Positions 6,653-9,971 of a stretch of 37,277 nt of DNA are shown here, in pieces. Origin of the DNA: Gammaproteobacteria bacterium (GTDB lineage Bacteria > Pseudomonadota > Gammaproteobacteria > PS1 > Pseudothioglobaceae); NCBI GenBank assembly GCA_015659815.1, contig DQME01000025.1:1-37277 (forward strand). Direction: 5' to 3'. The position numbers and the translations under genes are program-made. Every line of letters begins with the position of its first letter. Within the stretch, counting starts at the first letter, position 1. The notes beneath the pieces were generated by a model, which saw only the letters and a program-made list of their open reading frames with translations, ran no database searches and was not told the DNA's origin.

Positions 6653-6728
6653 GCGGGAATAGCTCAGCTGGTAGAGCATCACGTTGCCAACGTGAATGTC
6701 GCGAGTTCGAATCTCGTTTCCCGCTCCA
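6653..6728 (+). tRNA. tRNA-Gly(GCC), CCA encoded
   Basis: GCGGGAA/TTCCCGC acceptor; TCACG-TTGCCAA-CGTGA anticodon arm; GCGAG-TTCGAAT-CTCGT T arm; TCCA end. Confidence 0.96.
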
Positions 6729-6748
6729 AATTTTTTGAATAAATTTAG

Positions 6749-6769
6749 CCTGTTTGAGCAGGTTTTTTT
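6749..6769 (+). terminator. Short terminator-like hairpin between tRNA-Gly and tRNA-Cys
   Basis: CCTG-tttgag-CAGG followed by TTTTTTT; the stem is only 4 bp. Confidence 0.4.
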
Positions 6770-6786
6770 ATTTTCAATACCTAATT

Positions 6787-6860
6787 GGCTGGGTAGCAAA
6801 GCGGTTATGCAGGGGCCTGCAAAGCCTTATAGACCGGTTCGACTCCGGTCCCAGCCTCCA
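6787..6860 (+). tRNA. tRNA-Cys(GCA), CCA encoded
   Basis: GGCTGGG/CCCAGCC acceptor; GGGGC-CTGCAAA-GCCTT anticodon arm; ACCGG-TTCGACT-CCGGT T arm; TCCA end. Confidence 0.95.
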
Positions 6861-6890: not shown

Positions 6891-7208
6891 CTAGCTCTGA
6901 ACCAGGTACATGTACAAAAAGGTGCCAGCAAAAATACTCAAAAGAGAGTTACCCTTCCATAAGTGAACTCCAACAGTTGTAGCAATAGCTGCCAAAGTGT
7001 TAATGCTTTCAACGCTATTAAAGTCAACATTTTTGAGTACATATAGAACCAAAATGCTCATAATCATTGGTGGTGTATATTTCGCTATATAACTCATCAT
7101 TGGGTGCTTACTTTGTTTCTGAAAAATCACAAACGGTAGTAACCTGGTAGCAAATGTAGCAACAGTCATTACCACGATAAATGAAAGCAAATAACCTATA
7201 TCAACCAT
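6891..7208 (-). CDS. azlD: AzlD-family branched-chain amino acid export subunit
   Basis: 105 aa hydrophobic protein with FATRLLPF motif, directly downstream of and overlapping azlC. Confidence 0.85.
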   Translation of the reverse strand: MVDIGYLLSFIVVMTVATFATRLLPFVIFQKQSKHPMMSYIAKYTPPMIMSILVLYVLKNVDFNSVESINTLAAIATTVGVHLWKGNSLLSIFAGTFLYMYLVQS

Positions 7209-7875
7209 AAGACTTATTTTTTATAGCTCTTAGAGTTATGAGAATTGAAATGGACAACATAATTGAACCTACAAGCATTTGACTTGGAAAAAATATAAGC
7301 ACGAATATGGATGAAAGTGTAGCTATTACAAATGGCAAAATATCACGTATATTCTTCCACTGCTCGATTACCAAAACAATAAACAGTGCCGTTAATGCAA
7401 AATCCATCCCCTCTGTATTGAACTCAACTAAACCCCCTAGCAACACTCCTAATGTACAGCCTATTACCCAATAGCCCTGATTAATCAAGGTAATAAAAAA
7501 ATAATAATTTTGTTCGTTAACTTCTGCAGGAACTTTAATAGTAGTCACTAATGAATAGGTTTCATCAGTTAAACCAAAAACTAGGTAAAACTTTCTAAGA
7601 CCCCACTTGCCATACTTTTCAAGTATAGATAAACCATAAAAAACATGCCGAAAATTTAACATGAAAGTTGATATAAAAACCTCTGTTAATCCTGCACCAG
7701 CAGATAATAGACCTATAGCCATAAACTGTGCTGCGCCTGCAAAAATAAATAGACCCATTAGTGTGGAGAAGTACCAGGGATAGCCAAGCCCCTGGAAAAG
7801 GACACCGAACGTCATCCCCATAGGTATATAGCCAAACATGATTGGTGTTGTTTGTTTTATAATTCTGCGAATCAT
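7201..7875 (-). CDS. azlC: AzlC-family branched-chain amino acid permease subunit
   Basis: PIMFGYIPMGMTFGVLFQGLGYPWYFSTLMGLFIFAGAAQFMAIGLLSAGA and LNFRHVFYGLS motifs. Confidence 0.9.
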   Translation of the reverse strand: MIRRIIKQTTPIMFGYIPMGMTFGVLFQGLGYPWYFSTLMGLFIFAGAAQFMAIGLLSAGAGLTEVFISTFMLNFRHVFYGLSILEKYGKWGLRKFYLVFGLTDETYSLVTTIKVPAEVNEQNYYFFITLINQGYWVIGCTLGVLLGGLVEFNTEGMDFALTALFIVLVIEQWKNIRDILPFVIATLSSIFVLIFFPSQMLVGSIMLSISILITLRAIKNKSYG

Positions 7876-7882
7876 TTTATGC

Positions 7883-8038
7883 TTACACCCCTACACTTGA
7901 GCTTCTTCGCTCCATAAAAATTAAGTCACGCCATTCATGGTTCATTTTGCCTAATTTTTCCCGTACCCCAACAACTTTAAAACCATTTTTTTTATGGACC
8001 GCTATGCTTGCATGGTTCTCAGAAAAAATACCAGACTC
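7883..8038 (-). pseudogene. C-terminal remnant of a GNAT acetyltransferase (phosphinothricin/ArsN-like)
   Basis: Minus-strand translation ESGIFSENHASIAVHKKNGFKVVGVREKLGKMNHEWRDLIFMERRSSSVGV*: typical PAT-like GNAT C-terminus (IFxENxASIxLHxKxGF, VGxREKxGxM, WRDxxxMERRS). In-frame TAG just upstream; no N-terminal half. Confidence 0.8.
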
Positions 8039-8139
8039 AAGAGTCTATCATCACCGTTCTTTATTAGTAAGCGGTATATAGACAGTCTGGTTAGGTTTCC
8101 TAATTCTGAAAGAATTTGTATCATCTTGTCGTCATTCAT
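8002..8139 (-). pseudogene. N-terminal remnant of an ArsR-type HTH repressor running out of frame into the GNAT remnant
   Basis: Translation MNDDKMIQILSELGNLTRLSIYRLLIKNGDDRL|LSLVFFLRTMQA*: LxxLGNxTRLxIxRLLxxxG is the ArsR N-terminal signature; after about 33 aa the frame enters the GNAT sequence out of frame and stops. Confidence 0.7.
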
Positions 8140-8161: not shown

Positions 8162-8179
8162 TATAGTTATGTAACTATA
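8162..8179. promoter_or_regulatory. 18-bp palindrome, putative operator of the decayed ArsR-like gene
   Basis: TATAGTTA-TG-TAACTATA, perfect 8-bp arms, 22 nt upstream of the ArsR-remnant ATG (8139, minus strand). Confidence 0.45.
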
Positions 8180-8234
8180 TCACTAGTTTTATAGAATTAA
8201 TTACTATATAAGTTAATTGTTAGTACTATATTGT

Positions 8235-9971
8235 CTAGTTACACTCTTTAAAAATAAGAGATCTGCAGGTTCTACATTTAACCTCATCAAGTCTGGCATA
8301 TATAGAATTAATAGCCTCGCCCTTAGACTTGAAGAAATTTTCTTTACCGATGTCATCAATAAAGTTGACTTTTTCCATAAAATCATTCACAGTGGAATTA
8401 AAATTGACAAAGTATAGACTGCCTCCTAACTTCTTTAACCGATTCTGCTCAATGAGTAAGGCGTCAACCCCTGTCAAATCAACAAAGTTTACGCCATCAC
8501 AAACTATCAATATGTGGTGAATGATTTGGTTATCTATGATTGTAGATATTTCCTTCTGTATATGGTTAATAGAGCCAAAATATATAGACATATTAATCTT
8601 TATTATTTTGAGTTGTGGACATTGAATTAGTGGCGAAGTTTTAATACTATGCATCTTCCTACTGCCGTCACTTGATTGGTTTGAGAAAGCTAGAGTTTGT
8701 ACTTCTGGAGCTGAAGTCTTAGCAATAAATAACAATAGAGACAGTAGTACCCCTAGATATATCGCAAACTCCAAATCAATTAATAGAGTTGAAGCAAAGG
8801 TAACCAAAAATATAATGCTTTCAGATTTACTGTACTTGAAGGTTTTTTTTATATGCGCAGAGTCGATTAGGTTATATGCCACCAACAATATAATCCCAGC
8901 CATAGATGCTATCGGCAAATAAGCCATAAAAGGAGCAACCAACAGAACAATAATAATCAAGATGAGTGCGGCTAATATTGCTGACAAAGGTGTCTTGGCT
9001 CCAGACTCATAATTCACCCCAGTTCTTGTGAACGAACCAGACGAGGCATAGCTAGAAAAAAAACTACCGACTATATTGGACACGCCCTGACCTATAAATT
9101 CTTGATTAGAGTTAATTTTTTGATTTGACTTGGTAGCAATTGAACGGCCAATTGATGACGCCTCAATAAGGCCAAGAAGAGCTACAGCGAAAGCTCCTGG
9201 TGCAATTTCTGTTAGCGAATGTATAGAAAAATCTGGAAACGATAATGGTGGAATAAAGGCAGTAATATTACCAACCGTGATTATGCTTGATGTAAATGAC
9301 TTTAGGGTCCAACCAACAACCCCGCCTACTAATAATCCAACAAATAGGTTCGGTAATTTAGGTTGATACCTCTTTATTAGTATTGCACTTATTACGGTAC
9401 TCATACCTATAAAAAATAGAAATCCGTTGAACTCGCTAATTCCAAAATACAGCTCTTTCCAGACCTCAATGAAACCAACACCCTTAGTAGTAGATATTCC
9501 TAATATATGTGTAATTTGGCTACTAGCAATTAAAAATGCTGCCCCAGTAGTAAATCCTATAACTACATTGTGAGATACAAAATTTACCAAAACTCCAAAC
9601 TTGGCTAAACCAAAAGCGAGTTGATATATCCCAGCCAGAAATGTCAAAGTCAAGACCATGGCAATATACTCTTCGGTCCCTGGCACCGCATGCTGGCTAA
9701 TTGTTGCAAATACAACAATAGAAATAGCAGTAGTCGGGCCTGACACCAAATGGAATGATGAACCAAAAAGTGCTGCAATGATTGGAACAACCATAGCCGT
9801 ATATAGCCCGTATTCTGGAGGCATCCCAGCTATCGTTGCAAAGGCTATGCCTTGCGGAAAAACCAGCACAGCCCCAGTCAATCCAGCAATAAAATCTGCC
9901 TTTATGGTTTCCCATGTAGTGACTCTGAGCCAGATAATAAATGGAAAAATTTCAACTAACTTAGGCATCAT
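8235..9971 (-). CDS. SulP-family inorganic anion transporter with C-terminal STAS domain
   Basis: 578 aa; DFIAGLTGAVLVFPQGIAFATIAGMPPEYGLYTA, VSGPTTAISIVVF, C-terminal STAS (FVDLTGVDALLIEQNRLKKLGGSLYFVNF). Confidence 0.93.
   Translation of the reverse strand: MMPKLVEIFPFIIWLRVTTWETIKADFIAGLTGAVLVFPQGIAFATIAGMPPEYGLYTAMVVPIIAALFGSSFHLVSGPTTAISIVVFATISQHAVPGTEEYIAMVLTLTFLAGIYQLAFGLAKFGVLVNFVSHNVVIGFTTGAAFLIASSQITHILGISTTKGVGFIEVWKELYFGISEFNGFLFFIGMSTVISAILIKRYQPKLPNLFVGLLVGGVVGWTLKSFTSSIITVGNITAFIPPLSFPDFSIHSLTEIAPGAFAVALLGLIEASSIGRSIATKSNQKINSNQEFIGQGVSNIVGSFFSSYASSGSFTRTGVNYESGAKTPLSAILAALILIIIVLLVAPFMAYLPIASMAGIILLVAYNLIDSAHIKKTFKYSKSESIIFLVTFASTLLIDLEFAIYLGVLLSLLLFIAKTSAPEVQTLAFSNQSSDGSRKMHSIKTSPLIQCPQLKIIKINMSIYFGSINHIQKEISTIIDNQIIHHILIVCDGVNFVDLTGVDALLIEQNRLKKLGGSLYFVNFNSTVNDFMEKVNFIDDIGKENFFKSKGEAINSIYARLDEVKCRTCRSLIFKECN

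Follow-up and report, generated by a model that had tools for sequence, protein, structure and literature searches.

Known relatives of the locus

The arsN1 genes sit in ars operons and provide arsinothricin resistance through acetylation (PMC6465285). The locus described here lies in a window (the whole stretch of DNA analysed) of 37,277 nucleotides from a gammaproteobacterium of the Pseudothioglobaceae and carries a piece of an arsN1-like gene next to a piece of an arsR. Its likeness to the ArsR/SmtB family (HTH_20, PF12840; HTH_5, PF01022) resides in its first 33 residues, 74% identical to the intact ArsR of genome G040 (E 4.3e-11, the best match in 83 genomes of the family) and 70% identical to that of the congener G001 (E 5.9e-9), and in an upstream box common to all three genes, but the window copy is cut before the recognition helix and is no functional member. 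ArsN1 arsinothricin N-acetyltransferase family A (NF040503) is recognizable in 43 C-terminal residues, which match positions 115-157 of the 159 in the ArsN1a model (E 1.2e-9; 38.1 bits against a cut-off of 170), but the last third of the protein alone survives. The arsR-arsI pair of G047 belongs to the same ArsR group, has the same box and occupies the corresponding argG-azlC interval; unlike the window copy, it is intact, and its arsR is followed by a gene for an ArsI/CadI-family protein and by cysND, with no arsN. The interval between SulP and azlC in the window is, very probably, a pseudogene scar left by one deletion across an arsR and an ArsN1-like gene of the same orientation. It is a case of ordinary gene decay.

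Two truncated genes meet at one junction

The features of the interval are collected in Table 1. Read on the minus strand from the ATG at 8139, the translation gives MNDDKMIQILSELGNLTRLSIYRLLIKNGDDRL and then LSLVFFLRTMQA with a stop, 12 residues past the ArsR part; the GNAT half, TLESGIFSENHASIAVHKKNGFKVVGVREKLGKMNHEWRDLIFMERRSSSVGV, follows in a different minus frame and comprises approximately the last 53 codons of its gene. Its TAA (7883-7885) leaves a gap of 7 nt before the azlC start at 7875, as the sequence-only reading had stated. That reading had also taken the two halves for parts of different genes, and intact homologs of each in the same family, together with the translation, bear this out.

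Table 1. Features of the SulP-azlC interval and its neighbours (window coordinates)
Feature	Position	Strand	Basis or remark
SulP-family anion transporter, intact, upstream neighbour	8235..9971	-	TIGR00815 above cut-off
Conserved box AAAACTAGTGATATAGTTA preceding the arsR remnant; probable operator/promoter element for ArsR	8172..8190	-	Sequence comparison
arsR 5' remnant, 33 codons, start of winged-helix domain	8041..8139	-	Homology to intact arsR
Residual 45-aa ORF: 33 ArsR residues and out-of-frame tail	8002..8139	-	ORF list gives start TTG 8145
Deletion junction zone	8033..8047	-	Comparison with intact genes
ArsN1-like GNAT acetyltransferase gene, 3' remnant including stop	7883..8044	-	Homology, ArsN1a model
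azlC, intact, downstream neighbour	7201..7875	-
azlD-like partner, intact	6891..7208	-	Homologs adjoin azlC in relatives

The homology and profile searches that had been suggested for the two fragments gave different kinds of answer, the GNAT half matching the ArsN1a and PF13420 models and the ArsR half matching intact genes, not profiles. Beyond G040 and G001, the ArsR half is 56% identical to the intact ArsR of G047 (E 1.3e-7) and 50% identical to that of G062. Alone, with only about 20 domain positions retained, it has no Pfam or NCBIfam match in profile searches, and nothing meaningful matched it among solved structures. The intact proteins of G040, G001 and G047 contain a complete HTH_20 domain that scores over the cut-off, and these three and the G062 protein all match the ArsR/SmtB metalloregulator model at scores below its 55-bit cut-off. 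HTH_20 spans residues ~13-65 in the relatives, and the fragment, which ends after residue 33, lacks a complete winged helix-turn-helix; also in the missing part is the CCS motif that the relatives carry at the C-terminus, the presumed inducer site. The gene after arsR encodes an ArsP_1-family permease in G040, G001 and G062.

The GNAT half scores slightly below the cut-off of PF13420 (24.0 against 24.3 bits, E 4.3e-5), and only phosphinothricin-acetyltransferase-type entries matched it among solved structures. In the 83 family genomes it has one strong match, to the C-terminal end of a 163-aa protein that is intact in G063 (69% identity, E 3.8e-20) and whose gene does not adjoin an arsR; two further matches (E ~0.003-0.009) lie at an unrelated locus, in other GNAT-like genes. 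ArsN1a is likewise the best model for the G063 protein, at 139.7 bits, which is below the 170-bit cut-off and makes this protein ArsN1-like, not an assigned ArsN1. The arsN-like character guessed earlier is thus supported as homology, with arsinothricin no more than a candidate substrate of the lost enzyme.

A shared box upstream of arsR

The core ACTAGNNATATAG stands 35 nt before the dead arsR start codon in the window and 34, 35 and 24 nt before the intact arsR of G040, G001 and G047, respectively; AAAACTAGNNATATAG is common to the sequences upstream of these genes. In G062 the box is present only in a variant form. In the window the box is the single match at up to two mismatches (chance mean 0.02), and in six genomes the pattern occurs 0-2 times per genome, compared with 0 or 1 for the reversed control. 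Its conservation suggests that it is probably an operator or promoter element, to which an ArsR of this group would bind. A perfect 8-bp inverted repeat upstream of the start, TATAGTTACATAACTATA, was rejected as an operator: it is absent from the relatives and is equalled in ~3% of shuffles. The ACTAG box, which relatives do share, is the stronger candidate.

The probable deletion and its age

Each half has intact homologs in relatives, and the truncated ends face each other at a single junction. There the two stretches of homology touch or overlap, so the exact breakpoint can be placed only to within a few nucleotides. No direct repeats flanking the junction were found; there may be a short microhomology around GACTC. 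In the ancestor that we envisage, the space between SulP and azlC would have contained, in one orientation, an arsR preceded by its operator-promoter and a gene for an ArsN1-like enzyme. The deletion would have taken arsR from about codon 34, the acetyltransferase gene up to about codon 110 and anything between them, leaving two fragments in different frames, neither of which would be expected to work. If the two genes adjoined, at least ~0.5 kb would have been lost (~190 nt from arsR, ~330 nt from arsN).

One internal deletion within an arsR-GNAT operon had been proposed from the sequence; the truncation of two genes at one junction supports the deletion, but the operon itself lacks an intact arsR-arsN-azlCD counterpart. 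None was found in the family, among 40 relatives with azlC and 83 genomes searched with each half, and the suggested comparison of the azlC-SulP interval in relatives therefore returned no arsR-GNAT-azlCD operon to set beside the scar. Among 369 genomes of the class, 14 ArsN1a-like loci were likewise without an ArsR of this group in their ~1.5 kb flanks, as judged with a narrow four-sequence profile. The ancestor and the true size of the deletion are for this reason reconstructions, and a single deletion is the simplest account by parsimony. That the halves were instead acquired or decayed separately, in more than one event, is very unlikely: an arsR lies near argG without arsN in G047 and an arsN without arsR in G063, as separate histories would allow, but in the window the homologies meet within a few nucleotides and in the same orientation, as a single junction predicts.

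Equally improbable is an assembly error, in which the junction would have arisen from strain variants or thin coverage during assembly, the genes being intact in the living population. The genome is fragmented, with 195 contigs and 86.67% completeness, which favours such an artefact and also means that intact copies could be missing, but the stretch is present once in the assembly, and argG upstream and azlC, azlD and pgsA downstream match the congener G001. Because the flanks are syntenic with G001, it is unlikely that unrelated contigs were fused. Elsewhere the same assembly (87% complete) has neither an intact gene of this ArsR group, nor an ArsP permease, nor an intact ArsN1 above the cut-off; the two further ArsR-type genes that it does have belong to other groups. 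At locus L128 (G000:C158, 225-1976), another ArsR-type gene is followed by genes for rhodanese-like and metallo-beta-lactamase-fold proteins, an arrangement that presumably resembles a BigR-type sulfide-responsive locus.

The earlier suggestion of a retained mini-protein encoded by the 45-aa ORF, which might for instance dimerise with another ArsR protein and modulate it, is extremely improbable. The start codon, upstream box and first helices are kept, but the recognition-helix region and the CCS cysteines are missing, the end is out of frame, no family matches, and the clear matches (E <1e-3) in the 83 family genomes are full-length frames of 100-110 aa, the sole short-frame match being marginal (33% identity, E 0.04). 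The ORF would be a by-product of the deletion, for which a function is unlikely.

Returning to the single deletion, neither half contains an internal stop or frameshift, and codon differences number 18 synonymous and 8 nonsynonymous between the ArsR half and G040, and 20 and 16 between the GNAT half and G063. Since the divergence is largely synonymous and the frames are kept in both halves, the loss was probably fairly recent, as far as one genome can indicate.

A variable interval beside azlCD

In the congener G001, azlC-azlD follows argG after 87 bp, with no ars genes between, whereas the G047 interval holds the intact arsR-arsI pair and cysND, with SulP after azlD. Other genomes of genus g3 have the order azlC-azlD-SulP, and the window has argG-SulP-scar-azlC-azlD. 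The argG-azlC interval is a variable region, of which the window shows one state. The SulP of the window is 68-71% identical to its genus g3 counterpart, and its best match in the G001 assembly reaches only 31%; its placement suggests a rearrangement or a separate gain. Genes for tRNA-Gly and tRNA-Cys (window 6653-6860) lie between azlD and pgsA, adjoining the variable region.

Any transcription that starts at the retained promoter would now continue into azlCD, with no local repression. We nonetheless doubt that the azlCD pair has captured this ars promoter and is now driven by it, derepressed for lack of the repressor. In G001 the series argG-azlC-azlD has no ars genes in it, and other genera have azlCD at a different place, so the azl genes are likely bystanders.

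Implications

The scar records that an arsenic-type resistance module was lost in a lineage with small genomes and points to the argG-azlC interval as a place where genes are gained and lost, and the box that outlived its repressor indicates a likely conserved operator for this ArsR group.
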